The translations under genes were made by a program, and so were the position numbers. A DNA stretch of 64,000 bases from a virus: the IMG/VR virus record IMGVR_UViG_3300032069_000005, positions 1 through 64,000 of that record; one strand, written 5' to 3'. Positions 8,421 to 30,934 of the stretch are shown one piece after another. The stretch's first letter is position 1, and every line of letters begins with the position of its first letter. The notes below the pieces were generated by a model. It saw only the letters and a program-made list of their open reading frames with translations. It was not told where the DNA came from and did not search any database.

Positions 8421-8647
8421 AAGAACAGATTAAACTAACTCTAAATGATATTGATGATGTTCCTAAAACTTTTAATGCAATTGCGAGTGTAATAGAATCA
8501 ATAGTGCTATATTATGTAACTCAAAAGAAAGAGCAGGAATTAAGGGCATTTATTCTTGGGCTTGCTGTTTATGCTGGAAGTTTAATGCAGATGTTTGGAT
8601 ATACCGAAGAGGATGATAAAGATTATGGAGATTCTAATCCGATATAA
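8417..8647 (+). CDS. Hypothetical protein (76 aa)
   Basis: Coupled by ATGA to the upstream nuclease. Helical with a hydrophobic centre (AFILGLAVYAGSLMQMFG) and an acidic tail. The 3' end overlaps the recombinase start. A single membrane helix is possible but marginal. No family is recognised. Confidence 0.5.
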   Translation: MKEQIKLTLNDIDDVPKTFNAIASVIESIVLYYVTQKKEQELRAFILGLAVYAGSLMQMFGYTEEDDKDYGDSNPI

Positions 8648-9458
8648 AGAATTTTTATTAGCCAGGAAGCAATCAGCAAATTATTATAATATAGTGCGTA
8701 TTTTTTTGGGTTATTTAGAAGAACAAAAAATAGATTATGCCAAAATTACGCAGGAGACAATTACTAATTTTTTTAATGCTCATCCCGAATATAGTAAAAA
8801 TACTCTTACACAAAATATAAAAGCGGGCAGGCATTTTTATACTCAATTTTTACAAGTGCCTAAAGAACAGAATGAGTGGTATAAAATTAAATATATAAAA
8901 AGTCCCAGAAGAACTCCTAAATTTTTAACTCCAGAAGAATTGGGAGAGATAATTAGTAAATTTTGTTCTTATGAGAATAGATTAATGCCTCCATATAAAG
9001 TCAGAGTATTTACTACTTTTATGTATATGACTGGATTAAGGAAAAACGAAATTTTAAATCTTAAACGAACCGATATTAATTTTGGCATTGAAGAAAAGAA
9101 AAATAAATGCACCATAAAAATAATAGGCAAAGGTGATAAAGAGAGATTTGTGTATTTTTCTGATAAGTATTCCCCAGGGCTAAGGCAACAACTAATTGAT
9201 TATTTTCAGACCGAACCGGAAATCCAAAATGCCTTTAATTTAACTCTTGGGCAAGTCAATTACTTTGTAAGAAAAATGAATAAATATTTAGTAGAAAGAA
9301 AGATAACTCCACATCTATTCCGTCATTCGTTTGCGAAGTATCTTTTAGATAAAGGAGTGCCAATAACATATATTTCCCAGATGTTAGGGCATAGTTCAAT
9401 CGCCACTACAATGATATATCTAAATCCGACAGAAGAGCAGATTAAGAATTGTTTTTAA
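8625..9458 (+). CDS. Tyrosine recombinase / integrase
   Basis: 277 aa from ATG 8625; an ATG at 8613 and a TTG at 8595 are alternatives, but GAAGAGG (8606-8612) fits 8625 best. The N-terminal SAM-like DNA-binding domain spans about 1-95. The catalytic set is complete: Arg in TGLRKNEIL (139), Lys in GKGDKER (169), His-x-x-Arg in HLFRH (230, 233), His in LGHSS (256) and Tyr in MIYL (265). It is XerC/D-like in size and could integrate the genome or resolve multimers. No attachment site was identified. Confidence 0.88.
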   Translation: MEILIRYKEFLLARKQSANYYNIVRIFLGYLEEQKIDYAKITQETITNFFNAHPEYSKNTLTQNIKAGRHFYTQFLQVPKEQNEWYKIKYIKSPRRTPKFLTPEELGEIISKFCSYENRLMPPYKVRVFTTFMYMTGLRKNEILNLKRTDINFGIEEKKNKCTIKIIGKGDKERFVYFSDKYSPGLRQQLIDYFQTEPEIQNAFNLTLGQVNYFVRKMNKYLVERKITPHLFRHSFAKYLLDKGVPITYISQMLGHSSIATTMIYLNPTEEQIKNCF

Positions 9459-9493
9459 ATCGGAAAGATTTTGGAAACAGAAAGAAGTAATTA

Positions 9494-9670
9494 ATGTGGA
9501 AAGAATGTTTTAATTGCGGATTAAAATTTCAGGAAGATTTTATTAAGGATGAAATATTAATTGCTTTATGTAAAGCACGCCATCTGGATTTTTGTTCAAT
9601 GGAATGTTATGATAATTATGAAGCAGAACATATTAAATTTTTAGATAACGAAGGAGTGAATGATGAATAA
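9494..9670 (+). CDS. TRASH-like zinc-finger micro-protein (58 aa)
   Basis: ATG 9494. CFNCGLKF at the N-terminus and FCSMECYDNY near 33-42 give a CxxC...CSxxC pattern like TRASH or MYM zinc fingers. The 3' end overlaps the sigma-like gene. Probably a small zinc-binding regulator or adaptor. Confidence 0.6.
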   Translation: MWKECFNCGLKFQEDFIKDEILIALCKARHLDFCSMECYDNYEAEHIKFLDNEGVNDE

Positions 9671-10388
9671 TTTGACTGAAAAAGTTGTTAATTATAAAAA
9701 AACAAATGACAAGAATTTATTAGAAGAAATTTTTGAATTATTACAATCTACAATAAAAGAAAAAGCCAAGTTTATTTATTCTCAAAAATGGTTTCCTAAT
9801 AATTTATATATTAAATGCAAATATTGCCAAAAATGTAAATATAATAAAGAAGATGACTCAATAATAAAAGAATTTGAAAAAAGGAAGATATGCGAAAAGT
9901 GTGTTGATTGCACTTGCAAGAGAGGATATTTTAATTTAAAAACCAATAATTTATGCCATTACAAAGATGTAGAGCAAGACTTATTTCTGGAAGTTTTGAG
10001 ATTAATTAATGAATTCGATATAAAAATAGGCGATTTTGATTCTTATCTGTTTTGCTCGTTATGGAATTGGCGACCTAGTTTTATAACACTTGATTTTGTA
10101 GAAAACATAAATCATCATTCATTATTTAAACAAAATGAAGATGGGGAAGACATAATTTTGGAAAAAGAAGATAAGGCAGATGGGAATCAAATTAAATCAA
10201 ATTTAAATATAGAAGATATTTTCAATGAATGTAAAACAGCGAATGAAAGAAAAATATGCAATTTATTATTTGAAAATCCCAATATGACAATGCGGGAATT
10301 GGGGGAAAAATTAAAAATGACCAAACAAAATATTTATTTGATTTTAAAGAAGTTACGAAAAAGAATAAAAAATCACTTGACAAAATGA
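9663..10388 (+). CDS. Sigma-factor-like protein with inserted Cys cluster
   Basis: 241 aa. ATG 9663 is preferred to the adjacent ATG 9660 because AAGGAG (9651-9656) fits it better. DVEQDLFLEVLRLINEFD...FDSYLF resembles sigma-70 region 2 (core binding and -10 recognition). MTMRELGEKLKMTKQNIYLILKKLRKRI at the C-terminus is a region-4-type helix-turn-helix. Between the first helix and region 2 lies a block of about 45 residues with eight Cys (CKYCQKC...CEKCVDCTC), a likely zinc-binding insert. It may direct host RNA polymerase to phage promoters; one such promoter overlaps its own 3' end. Confidence 0.65.
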   Translation: MNNLTEKVVNYKKTNDKNLLEEIFELLQSTIKEKAKFIYSQKWFPNNLYIKCKYCQKCKYNKEDDSIIKEFEKRKICEKCVDCTCKRGYFNLKTNNLCHYKDVEQDLFLEVLRLINEFDIKIGDFDSYLFCSLWNWRPSFITLDFVENINHHSLFKQNEDGEDIILEKEDKADGNQIKSNLNIEDIFNECKTANERKICNLLFENPNMTMRELGEKLKMTKQNIYLILKKLRKRIKNHLTK

Positions 10389-10404
10389 GAAATTGATATA
10401 TACT
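10377..10404 (+). promoter_or_regulatory. Sigma70-type promoter
   Basis: Perfect TTGACA (10377-10382), a 16-bp spacer and TATACT (10399-10404), embedded in the 3' end of the sigma-like gene. The downstream TAGTAGTAGAAGGA matches the post-promoter motif at 2406 and 26. It would drive the HTH regulator and the endonuclease VII-like gene. Confidence 0.75.
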
Positions 10405-10426
10405 TAGTAGTAGAAGGACAACGAGA

Positions 10427-10477
10427 ATGACTAAGAGCCAAAAAGAGCCAAAAATAAGTGAAGTAATAATAAAATGA
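10427..10477 (+). CDS. Possible leader peptide (16 aa)
   Basis: ATG 10427 lies nine bases after GAAGGA and just downstream of the promoter start site. The peptide is Lys/Glu-rich (MTKSQKEPKISEVIIK). It could be a leader peptide; coding is not certain. Nothing else is visible in the 145-nt gap except the inverted repeat at 10495. Confidence 0.25.
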   Translation: MTKSQKEPKISEVIIK

Positions 10478-10494
10478 GATTTTAATTTTTTTTA

Positions 10495-10511
10495 ATTTGA
10501 TTTATTCAAAT
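10495..10511. promoter_or_regulatory. Possible operator (inverted repeat)
   Basis: ATTTGA, five bases, TCAAAT: a 6-bp inverted repeat centred about 30 bp before the HTH regulator gene. The size suits a Cro/CI-type dimer, so autoregulation is possible. The region is very AT-rich, so chance is a real alternative. Confidence 0.25.
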
Positions 10512-10532
10512 AAAATTTTTTGAAGGAATAAT

Positions 10533-10730
10533 ATGAATTTTTTATCAGTTTATAGAAAAGCAAAAAAATTAACTCAATTTGATGTTGCTAAAATTTTAGG
10601 CATTACCGATACACTTATTTGTAAATGGGAAACAGGTAAGATTATACCTACAAATGAACAAATTGTTAAATTAAGTGAAATTTATGGAGTAGGAGTAAAA
10701 AAATTATTTCCTGAATTATTTGGAGAATAA
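10533..10730 (+). CDS. Cro/CI-type HTH regulator
   Basis: 65 aa, essentially one HTH_3 domain: YRKAKKLTQFDVAKILG then DTLICKWETGKIIPT and a terminal helix. This is the size of Cro or XRE-family phage repressors without an oligomerisation domain. It sits directly behind the 10377 promoter and next to the sigma-like gene, suggesting a control node. Together with the recombinase at 8625 it hints at a lysogeny-type or lysogeny-derived module. Confidence 0.8.
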   Translation: MNFLSVYRKAKKLTQFDVAKILGITDTLICKWETGKIIPTNEQIVKLSEIYGVGVKKLFPELFGE

Positions 10731-10734
10731 TAAA

Positions 10735-11283
10735 ATGAATACAAAAATTTGTAATATATGCAAAATAGAAAAATTAGCAACAGAAGAACATTTTTATGAA
10801 GGAAGCTGTAAAGATGGACTGGCTTCTTCTTGTATAGATTGTCATAAAATATATATGAAAAATTGGCGGGCAAGAAACAAAGATAGAATAAGAAAAGCTC
10901 GAAAACAATATTATCAAAAACATAAAAAAGAAGCCATTCAGTATCAACAAAATCATAAAGAACAAATGAAAATCTATGATAAAAAGTATCGTCAACGCCA
11001 TTCCGACAGAATAAAAAATAAAAATTTAAAATATATTTATGGAATAACTTTAGAGGATAAAAAGAAAATATATAAAAATCAAAATAATAAGTGTAAAATT
11101 TGTGATAATTTTTTTGATATTAATCTATTGAAAATAGACCACAATCATTTAACAAACGAAATAAGAGGATTATTATGTAATAAATGCAATGCAGGGATTG
11201 GATTTTTACAAGAAAATCTTAAAATATTACAAAATGCAATTAATTATTTAAAAGAATATGAAAAATTCATAGGGGGAAAATAA
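10735..11283 (+). CDS. Recombination endonuclease VII-like nuclease
   Basis: 182 aa; ATG 10735 is preferred to an upstream TTG because GGAG lies nine bases before it. An N-terminal zinc module (CNICKIEKLATEEHF...CIDCHK) is followed by a very basic linker (about 45-100). The C-terminal domain has KCKICDNFF, IDHNHLTNEIRGLLCNKCN and the typical GFLQENLKILQNAINYL end. This is the His-Me endonuclease VII pattern (T4 gp49 family), which resolves Holliday junctions; free-standing homing versions also exist. It may partner the RuvB-like protein. Confidence 0.8.
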   Translation: MNTKICNICKIEKLATEEHFYEGSCKDGLASSCIDCHKIYMKNWRARNKDRIRKARKQYYQKHKKEAIQYQQNHKEQMKIYDKKYRQRHSDRIKNKNLKYIYGITLEDKKKIYKNQNNKCKICDNFFDINLLKIDHNHLTNEIRGLLCNKCNAGIGFLQENLKILQNAINYLKEYEKFIGGK

Positions 11284-11285
11284 TA

Positions 11286-11462
11286 ATGGAAGAAATTAAA
11301 CCTACGCCAGAACAAATTGAAACAAAGAAAAAAGAATTTAAATTACTTCAAGAAAAAATGACAAAAGCAATGTCAAAAATTAATGCTATCTTGGAAGAAG
11401 AGGGGTTAGTATTGCGAATTGCTCAAGATATTATATTAGCACCTAAAAGGGAGGTAAAATGA
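11286..11462 (+). CDS. Helical micro-protein (58 aa)
   Basis: Lys/Glu-rich, probably coiled coil (EQIETKKKEFKLLQEKMTK...). It starts just after the nuclease gene, and its stop overlaps the next start as ATGA. Its final codons contain the GGGAGG ribosome site of the repeat gene. Function is unknown. Confidence 0.55.
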   Translation: MEEIKPTPEQIETKKKEFKLLQEKMTKAMSKINAILEEEGLVLRIAQDIILAPKREVK

Positions 11463-12010
11463 AAACTGCGGGTTTAGCCATACACGTTCACCACAATATT
11501 TTAGTAGAGAATTGCTATGATTATAAAGAACGAGAAGAAGCGATAAAAGCTGCTAAACCTCTAAACGAACAAGAAATAAGATTACGTCTATTTAAAATGT
11601 TACCAAAAAAAGCCATAGCTGAATTGCCAAGAAATTTAATCAAGGCAATCGCTGACTGGGATAAGGCAAACGCTGACTGGGATAAGGCAAACGCTGACCT
11701 GGATAAGGCAAACGCTGACCTGGATAAGGCAAACGCTGACCTGGATAAGGCAAACGCTGACTGGGATAAGGCAAACGCTGACCCGGATAAGGCAATCGCT
11801 GACCTGGATAAGGCAATCGCTGACTGGGATAAGGCAAACGCTGACCTGGATAAGGCAAACGCTGACCTGGATAAGGCATACGCTGACCTGGATAAGGCAA
11901 ACGCTGACTGGGATAAGGCAAACCAAGAAGCTTGGCATAAGAAATGGTGCGGTTGTAAGGAATGGAACGGGAAAGAGATTATATTTCCAAAAAATAAAAA
12001 ACGATTATGA
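11459..12010 (+). CDS. Tandem-heptapeptide protein, HH...CYDY family
   Basis: 183 aa. The N-terminus (HVHHNILVENCYDY, IRLRLFK) and C-terminus (CGCKEWNGKEIIFPK) are shared with the protein at 4303. Between them lie about 14 copies of a 7-residue unit, DKANADL or DKANADW with minor changes, encoded by a 21-bp tandem repeat. The repeat is Ala/Asp-rich and should form one long helix. Because the unit is 21 bp, copy-number changes would keep the frame. Function is unknown; terminal His and Cys clusters suggest metal binding. Confidence 0.75.
   Translation: MKTAGLAIHVHHNILVENCYDYKEREEAIKAAKPLNEQEIRLRLFKMLPKKAIAELPRNLIKAIADWDKANADWDKANADLDKANADLDKANADLDKANADWDKANADPDKAIADLDKAIADWDKANADLDKANADLDKAYADLDKANADWDKANQEAWHKKWCGCKEWNGKEIIFPKNKKRL
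11642..11923 (+). repeat. 21-bp in-frame tandem repeat (about 13.4 copies)
   Basis: AAGGCA recurs 14 times at exact 21-bp spacing from 11642 to 11915. Units differ by a few substitutions (CTG/TGG/CCG and AAC/ATC/TAC codons). The array is GC-rich compared with its surroundings and wholly inside the gene at 11459. Confidence 0.95.
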
Positions 12011-12156
12011 TATTCTTACAAATTATAGCTACAATAAGTTTCTTATTGATGGGAGCAATTAATCTTATTTTTGTTCCAAGAGATTTTAACTTCGCACTAA
12101 TAAATTTATCGCTTTTTGTTCTTTATCTTGGACTTTACTTTCATCCATTTAAATAA
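12007..12156 (+). CDS. Two-helix membrane micro-protein (49 aa)
   Basis: Starts in an ATGA overlap. Two hydrophobic stretches (about 2-22 and 29-46) separated by PRDFN predict a small helical hairpin in the inner membrane. Its size would suit a holin-like or regulatory membrane peptide, but there is no direct evidence for lysis function. Confidence 0.55.
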   Translation: MIFLQIIATISFLLMGAINLIFVPRDFNFALINLSLFVLYLGLYFHPFK

Positions 12157-12168
12157 AGGAGATTATTC

Positions 12169-13251
12169 GTGAAAAATTGGTCGCCAGAAGAAGATAAAAA
12201 ATTAGAGGAAATGATAAAACAACAATTAACAACCGATGAAATGGCTGATAAATTAAAAAGAACTTTTAAATCAGTTCAACATAGAAGGGCATCTGTAGCA
12301 AAAGGATTAGAAATGAATTATGCACCTGAAATTCCAGAAAAGAAAAAGGATTTATCCGCACTCATAATTCAATCTTTAAAAGAAGAATTGGCAAATGTTA
12401 AACCTTATACTGTTTCTGCTCAAAGTAAAGTAGATATAAAAGGAGATACTTTAGTAATTCATATAACCGACCTTCACGCAGGTAAAATTGTCAAAGACCA
12501 AGAAGGGGAATTAATTTATAATGAAGAAATTTTTAGGAAAAGAATGAATCGCTTATGCGAGCAAACTTTAAAACTACTGGATAATAACATTAGTAAAGGT
12601 GTTCCGATAAATGATGTAGCAATATTATTAACCGGAGATTTAGCAAATGGAGAGGGAATTTATTTGACCCAGGCATATGAGCAAGAAATTGCTCCTCCCG
12701 CCCAAGTTATGCTCGTTGTTGATATTCTTACAAAATTAATCACTTCTTTATTAAAAAGAAATCTGCCTGTTAGGGTATTCGGAATAAGGGGAAATCACGG
12801 CAGAACGGGTAAGGATACAGATGTGGCATCGAATTGGGATTTGATGATTTATGAAATCCTGGATTTTTGGGCGAAACTGGTTTTAAAAAATCCAAAATTG
12901 CAGATTAAATTTGCTGAAACTGAACATCTAAGATTTGATATTCGAGGGCACGGATTTTTAATTAGACATATTTGCCCCGAACAGCCAGATACTCCTGCGG
13001 GTAGAGTAAAAATTAATCAATGGGCAAGACAACATAATGTAGAAGGGATTTGCTATGGGCATTATCATCACGCAGGGGTTTTTGATTGTGATAATGTTCG
13101 TGTTATGCGAGGAGGTTCTACAGTTGGCGGAGATAGTTTATCTGATAGTATGGCAAAAAATTCAGAACCAATACAATTAATATTTGGCGTGAATGAGCAA
13201 AGAGTAACTACATTCATATATTTCGTTGATTTAGCAGAGAAAAAGAAATAA
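12169..13251 (+). CDS. Metallophosphoesterase with SANT/Myb-like N-terminus
   Basis: 360 aa with a GTG start behind AAAGGAG. Residues 3-40 (WSPEEDKKLEEMI...FKSVQHRR) resemble a Myb/SANT-type DNA-binding helix set. The phosphoesterase domain has DLHAGK (D-x-H), GDLANGEG, RGNHGR and GHYHHAG, a full two-metal site. The DNA-binding head suggests a nuclease or a DNA-end phosphatase. It differs from the SbcD-like protein at 32966. Confidence 0.75.
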   Translation: MKNWSPEEDKKLEEMIKQQLTTDEMADKLKRTFKSVQHRRASVAKGLEMNYAPEIPEKKKDLSALIIQSLKEELANVKPYTVSAQSKVDIKGDTLVIHITDLHAGKIVKDQEGELIYNEEIFRKRMNRLCEQTLKLLDNNISKGVPINDVAILLTGDLANGEGIYLTQAYEQEIAPPAQVMLVVDILTKLITSLLKRNLPVRVFGIRGNHGRTGKDTDVASNWDLMIYEILDFWAKLVLKNPKLQIKFAETEHLRFDIRGHGFLIRHICPEQPDTPAGRVKINQWARQHNVEGICYGHYHHAGVFDCDNVRVMRGGSTVGGDSLSDSMAKNSEPIQLIFGVNEQRVTTFIYFVDLAEKKK

Positions 13252-26750: not shown

Positions 26751-28983
26751 TCTTCCAATCCAAAATATATCCTCAATTGGTCGTGAAATAATTCTCTTTA
26801 ATCGACAACAAAGCGGAGAGCTTACAATAATGAGAGATTTATTGTTCAGTCCCTATTATTATGTTCCTTCTCCTACTGGAATATTTAGAGGATACTTTGG
26901 CGGAAAATATGATAAAGTTACTTGTAAAAATCCCCGGGAAATAAAAGATAAACGAAATGTAAAAACAGATGGGGAAAGTGATGTTCCATATGTTCGTCGT
27001 TATCTACTTGATAAAGTAAATATAATTAAATCTCCTACGAGATGGATTATGTTTGATATTGAGACTCTTAGTAAAATTGTTCCTAATCCATTGGTTGCCC
27101 CAGACCCAATTACTTCAATAACCGCATATGATAATTATGAAAAAAAGTATATTCAATTTTGGTGCGAAAATTATCCATCTGAATATGAACTTATAGATGC
27201 GTTTATCAATTATATTAAGGAAAGGAAGCCAGATTTACTCCTGGCGTATAATATAAATGGATTTGATATGCCTTATTTGGTTACTCGTTTTTCTGACTTC
27301 GGAGAAAAGGTTAGCCCCATAGGACAAATTAAAAAAAGAAATGGATACCCAGAAGGAATCAGTATAGTCGACTATTATGAACTCATTAAAAAAGTATATA
27401 AATATAAGAGGCATACTTTAGATTTTATTTATTCTGATGAATTTAAAGTTCCCCAGAATTTTATAAAATATAGATTTAATGAGATTAGCCCAATCATTAA
27501 AGAAAAGAATCTGGAAGATGTAAAAAAAATGGTCGCCTTAGAAAATAAATTGCATCTCATTGATTATTTTGATGAACAAAGGAGAATTGCAAAAGTTCTT
27601 TGGGAAGATTTATGTCATTTTAGTGTATCTATCGATGGATTGATTTTGCAAACTGCGAAATCTAAAGGCGTAGTCTTACCGAGTAAACCAGACGAAGAAG
27701 AAAAACTTCGTCGAATAGAGGAAGATGAAATCGAAGGCGGATATGTATTTGCCCAACCAGGAAAATATGATGACGCTTCTTTACTAGATATTTCTGGGAC
27801 ATACCCGAATCTAATTACTACATTTAATCTTGACCCTGTAAATAAGAAGAAAATCCCCAATTCGCAGACAGTAACTATCAGAAAAATCCACATAGAACAG
27901 AATCCCAACGCCATTGTGCCAACAGTTGCCAATAGATTAATCGCTTCTCGTAAACAAATCCAAAAAGAACTCGAAGGAAAAACAGGCGAAGAATATGATT
28001 TATTAAAGAAAAAAGATGATGCACATAAATCGCTTAATAATGTGGTCTACGGGATTTTGCTTTTTAAGAATTCTCGTATATATGATAAAGACATCGCCGA
28101 TTGCATTACCTATTTAGCGAGGTTCTTAATTCGATATACCAAATTTGCTTTAAGAAAATTGGGATATTCAGTCATTTCTTCAGACACCGATTCTATTTTT
28201 GTTCATTCCAGAGATTATGAGAAAATAGAAAAATTATGCAATGAAACATTAATTCCTAACTGGCTTAGACACTTTGGCAAAACAGAAGGAACTCTGAGAT
28301 TTAAATATGAAGGATATTTTGAGAATGTTGTTTTTGAAGCACCAAAACATTACAGAGGCAATTTTGTTACTGCTAAGGGCGAACATAAAATGATAAATAA
28401 AGGCATCGAAATTGTTCGCAAAGATTCTTCTAAATTTCAAGAAGAATTTTTAGAGGAATTATATAATAGAATTTTAAAAAATGAAAGTGAGCAAACCATC
28501 TCTAATTGGATATTAGAACAAATAAAAGAATTACCCAATAAACCATTGAAAAATATTGCATTTCCTTTTCAAATAGTCCAAAAAATTTATAATAGTATTC
28601 CTATATCTATTCGAGCACTTCAATATACTGACGAAATAATTCCCAATTTTAGTCAAGATTATCATAATGAATTATATTATATTTATGTTAAACCATTTGG
28701 AACAGCAGAAAGACATTCCAAAAGTATGCGAAAGAATAAAGATACTGGAAAAAAGGAATTAAAAGAATCACATACTATAATAAATAAGAACGTCCTCGCC
28801 TTTGACGAAAATACTGACCACATAAAAGAAGTAGATTATTCAGAAATGATTAGACGCAATATTTTAGATAAGGCGGAAAAGCTCTTTGATGTTTTGGGAT
28901 GGAATAAAGAATTGATTGGGATAAAAAAGAAAATTTCTAAAAAAGATGCAATTGCCGAACTCAAAAAAAGAGGATTATTATAA
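26743..28983 (+). CDS. Family B DNA polymerase
   Basis: 746 aa. The 3'-5' exonuclease motifs are present: FDIETL (Exo I, 104-109), YNINGFDMPYL (Exo II, 169-179) and KRHTLDFIYSD (Exo III region). Polymerase motif A is atypical (ASLLDISGTYPNLI, about 343, instead of SLYP). Motif B is KSLNNVVYG and motif C is SSDTDSI (about 478-484) with both aspartates. It is the replicative polymerase of the element. Its last 16 codons are copied downstream (29989-30036) by a tandem duplication. Confidence 0.88.
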   Translation: MLNLPIQNISSIGREIILFNRQQSGELTIMRDLLFSPYYYVPSPTGIFRGYFGGKYDKVTCKNPREIKDKRNVKTDGESDVPYVRRYLLDKVNIIKSPTRWIMFDIETLSKIVPNPLVAPDPITSITAYDNYEKKYIQFWCENYPSEYELIDAFINYIKERKPDLLLAYNINGFDMPYLVTRFSDFGEKVSPIGQIKKRNGYPEGISIVDYYELIKKVYKYKRHTLDFIYSDEFKVPQNFIKYRFNEISPIIKEKNLEDVKKMVALENKLHLIDYFDEQRRIAKVLWEDLCHFSVSIDGLILQTAKSKGVVLPSKPDEEEKLRRIEEDEIEGGYVFAQPGKYDDASLLDISGTYPNLITTFNLDPVNKKKIPNSQTVTIRKIHIEQNPNAIVPTVANRLIASRKQIQKELEGKTGEEYDLLKKKDDAHKSLNNVVYGILLFKNSRIYDKDIADCITYLARFLIRYTKFALRKLGYSVISSDTDSIFVHSRDYEKIEKLCNETLIPNWLRHFGKTEGTLRFKYEGYFENVVFEAPKHYRGNFVTAKGEHKMINKGIEIVRKDSSKFQEEFLEELYNRILKNESEQTISNWILEQIKELPNKPLKNIAFPFQIVQKIYNSIPISIRALQYTDEIIPNFSQDYHNELYYIYVKPFGTAERHSKSMRKNKDTGKKELKESHTIINKNVLAFDENTDHIKEVDYSEMIRRNILDKAEKLFDVLGWNKELIGIKKKISKKDAIAELKKRGLL

Positions 28984-29126
28984 TATGGATTTATCTAAAT
29001 TATCTAATGAAGAATTAATGAAAATAGCGAAAATATCTCCTAAATTTGCGGGGGAAGTATCGAAAAAGATACTCCTTGCTTCCAGCGAGGAAGGTGGGGT
29101 GCAAGTCCCTAACCCCGCTCCAAATA
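28936..29126 (+). repeat. 191-bp direct repeat, copy 1
   Basis: Matches 29989-30179 with an offset of 1053 bp. 28954-29126 is identical base for base to 30007-30179; the first 18 bp differ at a few positions. It spans the polymerase C-terminus and the first 47 codons of the first Mom-like gene. Confidence 0.95.
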
Positions 29127-29917
29127 AAGAATTAATAATTAAAAAAAAAGAAGAATTGATGCACTCTGATTTTGATTCTTCAAATTTTATGATAGAATTA
29201 ATTGAACCAAAAATGACATATGAGTGGATGATGTATAAACATTATGCACATAAAATACCTCCGGTTATTAAATATTGTTACGGTTTATTTAAAAATAAAC
29301 AACTCGTGGGGGTTTGTGTTTATGGAATATTGGCAAATAAAGAATATAATAATGGAAAATGTTTGTTTAAAAATTATCGAGTTGATGTTTTAGAATTAAA
29401 AAGATTAGTTGTAGATGATGATTTGCCAAAAAATACATTATCTTATTTTGTTTCAAAAACATTAAAAATGCTTCCACAACCAACGTGCGTTGTTAGTTAT
29501 GCAGATAGTAATCAAAATCATCACGGATATATTTATCAGGCTACCAATTGGTTATATACAGGTATGGGAAGAGGGAAATTAGCAATAATAGACAAATCAA
29601 CGGGAGAGGAAATTCACGAGAAAACGATATATGACAGGTATGGGACAAATAATATAGAAATTTTAAAAACTAAATTTGATTTTGATACAAAAATTTTAAA
29701 AGGAAAATATCGTTATTTAAAATTTATTGGAAATCATAAACAAAAAAAAGAAATGTTACACTCATTAAAATGGAAACTTTTTCCATATCCAAAAGGCGAT
29801 AATATCAATTATGATGCTTCTTATAAAATTAAAAATTTAAATATAAATAAAAAAGGAATAATTCAGGAAAAGAGAGAGGAAGATAGACAGACAGAAAAAC
29901 AGGAGGAAGAGAGATGA
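28985..29917 (+). CDS. Mom-like DNA-modification acyltransferase, copy 1
   Basis: 310 aa from ATG 28985. Residues 1-47 are a helical module identical to the paralogue at 30038. The core (about 60-260) has KHYAHKIPP, YGLFKNKQLVGVCVYG, ELKRLVVDDDLPKNTLSYF, SYADSNQNHHGYIYQATNW and EKTIYDRYG, the pattern of the phage Mu Mom-type GNAT family that modifies adenine in DNA. The C-terminal 17 residues (EKREEDRQTEKQEEER) again match the paralogue. It probably protects phage DNA from restriction. The exact modification cannot be read from sequence. Confidence 0.7.
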   Translation: MDLSKLSNEELMKIAKISPKFAGEVSKKILLASSEEGGVQVPNPAPNKELIIKKKEELMHSDFDSSNFMIELIEPKMTYEWMMYKHYAHKIPPVIKYCYGLFKNKQLVGVCVYGILANKEYNNGKCLFKNYRVDVLELKRLVVDDDLPKNTLSYFVSKTLKMLPQPTCVVSYADSNQNHHGYIYQATNWLYTGMGRGKLAIIDKSTGEEIHEKTIYDRYGTNNIEILKTKFDFDTKILKGKYRYLKFIGNHKQKKEMLHSLKWKLFPYPKGDNINYDASYKIKNLNINKKGIIQEKREEDRQTEKQEEER

Positions 29918-29919: not shown

Positions 29920-30036
29920 TTGAAATTTCAACAACATAATGGTTGGGTATATGTTTCTGATTTATATAAAGTAGAAACCAGACAAATGTCAAAAAAAGAA
30001 GCACTCGCCGAACTCAAAAAAAGAGGATTATTATAA
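29914..30036 (+). CDS. Hybrid 40-aa ORF at a duplication junction
   Basis: The N-terminal half (MILKFQQHNGWVYVSDLYKV) resembles the start of the gene at 30931. The C-terminal half (SKKEALAELKKRGLL) is nearly the same as the end of the DNA polymerase. It therefore looks like the fusion made when a block from the polymerase tail to the next gene was duplicated in tandem. It may be expressed, since it has the same ribosome site as the 30931 gene, but probably has no selected function. Confidence 0.6.
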   Translation: MILKFQQHNGWVYVSDLYKVETRQMSKKEALAELKKRGLL

Positions 30037-30179
30037 TATGGATTTATCTAAATTATCTAATGAAGAATTAATGAAAATAGCGAAAATATCTCCTAAATTT
30101 GCGGGGGAAGTATCGAAAAAGATACTCCTTGCTTCCAGCGAGGAAGGTGGGGTGCAAGTCCCTAACCCCGCTCCAAATA
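29989..30179 (+). repeat. 191-bp direct repeat, copy 2
   Basis: Second copy of the repeat at 28936. It includes the duplicated polymerase tail and the first 47 codons of the second Mom-like gene. A GC-rich hairpin (stem GTGGGGT/ACCCCGC) lies near its end in both copies. Confidence 0.95.
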
Positions 30180-30934
30180 TAAATAAAATCATAAAACAAA
30201 AATATGATAAAATACAAGACAATAAATCACAATCGAAAGAGATAAAAAATTTTAATTTAAAAGATTTAAATATGAAAGAATTGGAATTTCAAATAACTAA
30301 AGAATTTATTGTTAAGAATCATTACAGTCATACAATTTCTTCATCTATAAAAGCAAGTATTGGATTTTTTTATAATAATAAATTAGTTACTGCTATTGTT
30401 TATGGTCATCCAATTGGAATTAATGTTGGTTCTTGGTTGCAAGTTCCTGAAGGAAGTTATGCCGAATTAATTAGAGTTTTTAGTGTTGATGAGTTACCAA
30501 AAAATACGGAAAGTTATTGTTTGGCAAAGTCATTTGAATTTTTGAAGAAAAATAAACCAGAATTAAAATATTTAATTAGTTATGCAGACCCCACTCAAGG
30601 GCACGTAGGTTATATTTATCAAGCAACTAATTGGTATTATGTTGGTAAACAGATAGGAATGGATAGAATTTTTAAAATTGATGGCAAACAAGTTCATAGA
30701 AGAACCGCCAATGCTGCTTATGGAACATCTTCAGTTAAAAAATTATCAGAATTATTAGGCAAAAGATTTGAAGTATCAATAACATATCCAAAACACATTT
30801 ATTTAATGTGTTTGGGTTCTCGTAAAGAAAAAAAAGAATGGTATAATAAATTCAAACAATTACCATATCCTAAAATAATTCAAGAAAAGAGAGAGGAAGA
30901 TAGACAGACAGAAAAACAGGAGGAAGAGAGATGA
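30038..30934 (+). CDS. Mom-like DNA-modification acyltransferase, copy 2
   Basis: 298 aa. Same N-terminal 47-residue module and C-terminal tail as the gene at 28985, but a clearly divergent core: KNHYSHTISSSIKASIGFFYNNKLVTAIVYG, ELIRVFSVDELPKNTESY, SYADPTQGHVGYIYQATNW and RRTANAAYG. The family motif set of Mom-like GNAT enzymes is intact, so both copies may be active, perhaps with different specificity. Near-identical flanks with a divergent core suggest recombination at the flanks. Confidence 0.7.
   Translation: MDLSKLSNEELMKIAKISPKFAGEVSKKILLASSEEGGVQVPNPAPNINKIIKQKYDKIQDNKSQSKEIKNFNLKDLNMKELEFQITKEFIVKNHYSHTISSSIKASIGFFYNNKLVTAIVYGHPIGINVGSWLQVPEGSYAELIRVFSVDELPKNTESYCLAKSFEFLKKNKPELKYLISYADPTQGHVGYIYQATNWYYVGKQIGMDRIFKIDGKQVHRRTANAAYGTSSVKKLSELLGKRFEVSITYPKHIYLMCLGSRKEKKEWYNKFKQLPYPKIIQEKREEDRQTEKQEEER

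Follow-up and report, generated by a model that had tools for sequence, protein, structure and literature searches.

A putative ECF-like sigma factor of a phage, with a cysteine-rich insert in its region 2.1/2.2 loop

The window, a stretch of 64,000 nucleotides from the virus record IMGVR_UViG_3300032069_000005 (positions 1 to 64,000 of 86,231 bases), encodes a 242-residue protein that profile matches and alignments support as a divergent sigma-70/ECF-like protein. A block of Cys residues interrupts its region 2, and the homologous protein of a second phage lacks this block. We consider it probable that the protein is an ECF-like phage sigma factor, in which a metal-stabilised Cys module serves as an accessory contact surface, and that the nearby promoter is read by the housekeeping sigma factor of the host. 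The coordinates of the gene, its segments and its neighbours are given in Table 1.

Table 1. Features of the window around the sigma-like gene
Feature	Position	Strand	Basis
Tyrosine integrase, conserved neighbour	8595..9458	+	ORF profiles, synteny
58-aa Cys-containing protein just 5' of the sigma-like gene	9494..9670	+	Kept in the relative phage (55 aa)
Sigma-70/ECF-like gene with Cys-rich insert	9660..10388	+	242 aa; profile matches and RpoE alignment
Region 2.1-like helix, residues 18-40	9711..9779	+	Alignment with RpoE and the relative; helix predicted at 18-41
Cys-rich insert in the 2.1/2.2 loop, residues about 41-102	9780..9965	+	Cys count, RpoE alignment; missing in the syntenic relative
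Region 2.2-2.3-like segment with D-V-E-Q core-binding motif, residues 103-136	9966..10067	+	Profiles, RpoE alignment
Region 4-like helix-turn-helix, residues about 190-237	10227..10370	+	Profile and fold matches
Promoter TTGACA-16-TATACT, class CTTGACAA-N-TATACTT	10377..10404	+	Consensus scan, class count
Putative 16-codon leader ORF	10427..10477	+	ATG 22 nt past the -10 box, spacing compared with class sites of the relative
65-aa HTH (XRE/Cro-like) regulator 3' of the promoter	10533..10730	+	ORF profiles

Sigma-70 relationship of the 242-residue protein

The reading frame has neighbouring ATG codons at 9660 and 9663 and a stop codon at 10386-10388. The NCBIfam sigma70-ECF model TIGR02937 matches the protein with an E-value of 2.4e-10 and 40.3 bits, which is 2.6 below the curated cut-off of 42.9 bits (passed by 10 of 14 named genomes in a control run), region 2 being interrupted by the insert in this match. 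Two PHROGs families named 'RNA polymerase sigma factor', phrog_1740 and phrog_351, gave E-values of 5.6e-7 and 6.8e-7, with the PHROGs sigma match covering residues 163-241 and hence region 4. Pfam Sigma70_r2 stayed below its gathering score, with E-values of 0.0024 for the whole protein and 0.00089 for the region-2-like segment alone, and the Sigma70_r4 score was likewise under the curated cut-off. The best Pfam match, HTH_24, is a generic helix-turn-helix (HTH) and alone would not have revealed the sigma identity.

The decisive evidence for that identity is the insert-less relative. It is encoded at 102,261-102,821 on the minus strand of the phage contig IMGVR_UViG_3300032046_000006, which surfaced through a clamp-loader search, and it is 44% identical to the window protein. 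The relative passes the TIGR02937 cut-off over its full length (49.0 bits, E-value of 5.2e-13, residues 22-184 corresponding to model positions 3-164), and the PHROGs sigma families match it as well. It also lies in the same gene order, the clamp loader, the integrase, a small Cys protein and the sigma-like gene following one another in both phages. The core-binding motif D-[VIL]-x-Q of region 2.2 is kept, with DVEQ in the window protein and DIKQ in the relative aligned to DVVQ of E. coli RpoE.

The AlphaFold2 model of the relative has a pLDDT of 68.5. Foldseek returned mostly sigma factors for this model, none of them at an E-value below 0.001. VIA-align also returned mostly sigma factors, including region 2 of sigma-E (4lup_C, Z of 8.2 over 87 residues at 2.9 Å), although middling Z values of this kind are common among helical proteins. 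The model of the window protein itself is poor, with a pLDDT of about 47 (47.1) overall and about 30 in the insert, and its best-modelled part is the region 4 HTH. This C-terminal part resembles sigma region 4 domains, for example 3vfz_A (Z of 7.9 over 62 residues at 3.2 Å); the fold matches cover mainly region 4, and other HTH proteins are among them. The sequence-only reading had proposed a phage sigma factor and had made this depend on a sigma-70 relation of the region-2-like segment. Such a relation was found in the TIGR02937 and Sigma70_r2 comparisons, and the proposal is supported by the profile matches, the region 2.2 motif, the fold matches of the relative and the surrounding phage genome.

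Scans of viral contigs for further relatives returned nothing beyond IMGVR_UViG_3300032046_000006, leaving two members in total. Four short genome-contig matches (L020-L023) were dropped after the matching ORFs of two of them, L022 and L023, showed no resemblance to a sigma factor beyond a short HTH. A profile (A3) run against 198 Bacteroidota genomes matched none of them (0/198), in a scan that had no positive control in that set. No close relative was found by tblastn against phage and plasmid sequences, where the best match was an ECF-like ORF on an unannotated scaffold filed as phage (E-value of 0.03), and the DNA of positions 8600-12200 had no match among 50,697 phage records.

A segment corresponding to region 2.4 is present in the alignment. 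It is non-basic in both proteins, with net charges of -1 and -4 over 16 residues compared to +3 in RpoE; at the positions of this basic RpoE segment, the two proteins have W-N-W-R-P and W-T-W-Q-P followed by neutral or acidic sequence. The usual -10 recognition is consequently doubtful, and promoter recognition by the window protein and its relative may be unusual or lost. The loss of the basic region keeps alive a non-sigma, polymerase-appropriating role, in which a sigma-like regulator without -10 recognition would occupy the polymerase or the -35/flap site and redirect or block host transcription, as a coactivator or an appropriator. The replacement of the region 2.4 helix in both proteins and the standing of the region 4 HTH as the best-modelled part would fit such a regulator. 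However, the relative scores above the sigma70-ECF cut-off along its whole length and the region 2.2 motif is retained, and we regard this role as somewhat unlikely. We favour a small ECF-like sigma factor with regions 2 and 4 on a short linker. It would bind the host core RNA polymerase via regions 2.1/2.2, including D-V-x-Q, and via region 4, and could steer the bound polymerase to a subset of phage promoters.

The cysteine-rich insert

The Cys residues of the insert are 53, 56, 59, 78, 81, 84, 86 and 99, the last followed by His100; further Cys residues of the protein are found at 132, 191 and 200. Among the 213 stop-to-stop frames of the window with 60 residues or more, one has eight Cys residues within 47 residues. 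In an alignment with E. coli RpoE and another ECF-like ORF, the insert falls into the loop that joins region 2.1 to region 2.2, and the D-V-x-Q motif comes directly after it. This loop has 12 residues (41-52) in the relative compared to 63 (40-102) in the window protein, a net difference of 51. The sequence-only reading had described about eight Cys residues flanked by regions 2 and 4. The number agrees with our count, but the block splits region 2 itself and does not lie between regions 2 and 4. The insert is directly followed by region 2.2, the surface with which sigma factors hold the polymerase. Two phage sigma factors that differ naturally in the presence of a Cys-rich module at this place offer a test of domain addition and its effect.

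No convincing match to the insert was found in Pfam, PDB or phage sequences. Both phages encode other Cys-rich ORFs. The insert gave weak matches within the two phages (best E-value of 0.033); these fall on small Cys-rich ORFs and were not accepted as homology. Residues 52-101 gave a non-significant match (E-value of 0.6) to the model of an Fe-S cluster domain protein. A literature search by title or abstract opening found no Cys-rich insert described for the 2.1/2.2 loop of a sigma factor.

Judging from the Cys pattern alone, the module would most likely fold round one or two metal ions, zinc by default, and form an accessory contact surface for promoter DNA or polymerase. We call it accessory because the protein of the relative manages without it. 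The insert might also be tolerated decoration that plays no part in regulation, as its presence in one protein of the pair would allow. This is unlikely given eight regularly spaced Cys residues in an AT-rich frame; a single sequence gives no measure of constraint.

The promoter at the 3' end of the gene

The promoter at 10377-10404 matches 11 of the 12 sigma-70 consensus positions. It had been described as a perfect TTGACA/TATACT promoter over the 3' end of the gene; the -35 element is indeed perfect and lies in the last codons, but the -10 element is one off TATAAT. A plain scan of the window, with five such 11/12 sites seen and 4.6 expected by chance, backed a chance match. This was overturned by counting the particular pair of elements and by comparing the two sites of this phage. 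TTGACA followed by TATACT 15-19 bases on occurs six times in the two phage records combined (about 192 kb in nine pieces). In 60 dinucleotide shuffles the count averaged 0.12 and never exceeded 1. TTGACA with a TATAAT partner at the same distance was seen 0 times with 0.62 expected. All six members read CTTGACAA and TATACTT. With a matrix built from the six, the members score 29.7-33.8 and the next site 17.5, a gap that is partly due to this construction. Two members belong to this phage (10377 on the plus strand and about 85,021 of the record on the minus strand) and four to the relative. Window positions 10375-10411 are identical to the site at about 85,021 at 31 of 37 positions.

The four sites of the relative are located 22, 23, 46 and 50 bases upstream of ATG codons behind AGGAG-type ribosome sites. 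They fall within about 5 kb (L011 7383, 8264, 11056 and 12487, minus strand) and precede small ORFs, likely early genes, whose ribosome sites are strong. The site at about 85,021 heads minus-strand genes. Right behind it lies a GC-richer stretch (L003:6600-6992, minus strand; about 84,600-84,992 of the record) of 41% compared to 30% GC, with a folding z-score of only -2.3 and no match in Rfam. This stretch is possibly a structured leader of the minus-strand (late) genes. The promoter at 10377-10404 is credible and probably serves the HTH regulator and genes beyond.

With TTGACA, a spacer in the 16-18 bp range and a TATAAT-like -10 element, the promoter fits the housekeeping sigma-70 type. Since the class resembles housekeeping promoters, it need not be the target of the phage sigma factor, and the suggested link of the sigma-like gene to this promoter is weak. 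No promoter could be assigned to the phage sigma factor; this and the finding of only two family members count against the explanation that we prefer. The phage sigma factor might itself read the TTGACA/TATACT class, the 10377 promoter being its own target. The class is discrete: its -10 element has an invariant C, with six members against none with TATAAT, and it is common to both sigma-carrying phages. Its -35 element is canonical, however, and the promoters read by phage sigma factors are usually not of the housekeeping type, which makes this arrangement quite doubtful. It is also disfavoured by the T7 A1 promoter, TTGACT/GATACT, which works with the E. coli holoenzyme according to the available text of PMC10800924, so that this holoenzyme accepts a -10 element of the TATACT kind. 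The class is most likely read by the housekeeping sigma factor of the host.

Comparison with known systems and genome context

As in ECF (group IV) sigma-70 factors such as E. coli RpoE, region 2 is followed by region 4, with D-V-x-Q in region 2.2 and an HTH in region 4. Unlike these factors, the window protein is phage-borne and has a non-basic region 2.4 and a Cys-rich insert in its 2.1/2.2 loop, and no anti-sigma family was found among the profiled neighbouring ORFs. The anti-sigma module ZAS has the motif H-x3-C-x2-C; this motif is absent from the window protein, none of whose His residues (100, 152, 153 and 239) has Cys at +4 and +7. The profile similarity to the phage sigma factors of phrog_1740 and phrog_351 covers regions 2 and 4; along phrog_1740, the insert-less relative aligns from residue 9 to 182, whereas the best stretch of the window protein, 102-241, comes after the insert.

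CorE-like (ECF44/ECF238) sigma factors also carry a Cys-rich domain. In CorE, a metal-responsive sigma factor, this domain is C-terminal and a CXC motif is present in the sigma2-sigma4 linker, the latter in former ECF44 members only, as far as the available text of PMC8999054 goes. By comparison, the Cys block of the window protein is at residues 53-99, the chain ends just past region 4, and the linker is Cys-free, with none between 132 and 191. A metal- or redox-dependent switch had been suggested. Metal binding or oxidation of the insert would then alter helices 2.1 and 2.2 and switch core binding on or off; the density of Cys residues next to the region 2.2 motif, two C-x2-C-x2-C motifs compatible with zinc or an iron-sulphur cluster, the CorE precedent and the non-significant Fe-S match point that way, but such a switch is improbable, as structural zinc modules look alike, other Cys-rich ORFs occur in both phages, the insert is missing in the relative and no homologue of it was found in Pfam, PDB or phage sequences. 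We give no more credence to a sigma factor gated inside region 2, with a metal or Fe-S module in the 2.1/2.2 loop sensing redox or metal, setting core binding or promoter choice and so timing phage genes. If the module were a switch, it would control a sigma factor with no anti-sigma partner, a mode not found described in the literature searched.

Jumbo phages with a family B DNA polymerase carry their own group 2 sigma factor (PMC7824862, available text). The present phage likewise combines a family B DNA polymerase with a sigma factor of its own; unlike the jumbo phages, its record is 86 kb, and no Cys-rich insert is described for the jumbo group 2 factors in that text.

In the phage genome, the plus strand carries replication genes (clamp loader, primase/helicase, RecA and family B polymerase), and the minus strand carries a tail tape-measure protein and a gene with annotated large terminases among its tblastn matches. 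Neighbours of the sigma-like gene are the tyrosine integrase, the 58-residue Cys protein, the HTH regulator and an endonuclease VII. Intein-like LAGLIDADG insertions were noted in the terminase-like gene of this phage (L002:11672-13810, minus strand) and in the integrase of the relative (L007:10523-12373, minus strand). Window positions 11459-12010 contain 21-nt tandem repeats encoding a 7-residue protein repeat of the D-L-D-K-A-N-A kind, and related repeat ORFs occur in the relative phage (three tblastn matches in L007 and L011). Two adjacent genes share 224 nt at 93% identity (28931-29154 and 29984-30207 of the window), likely a recent duplication.
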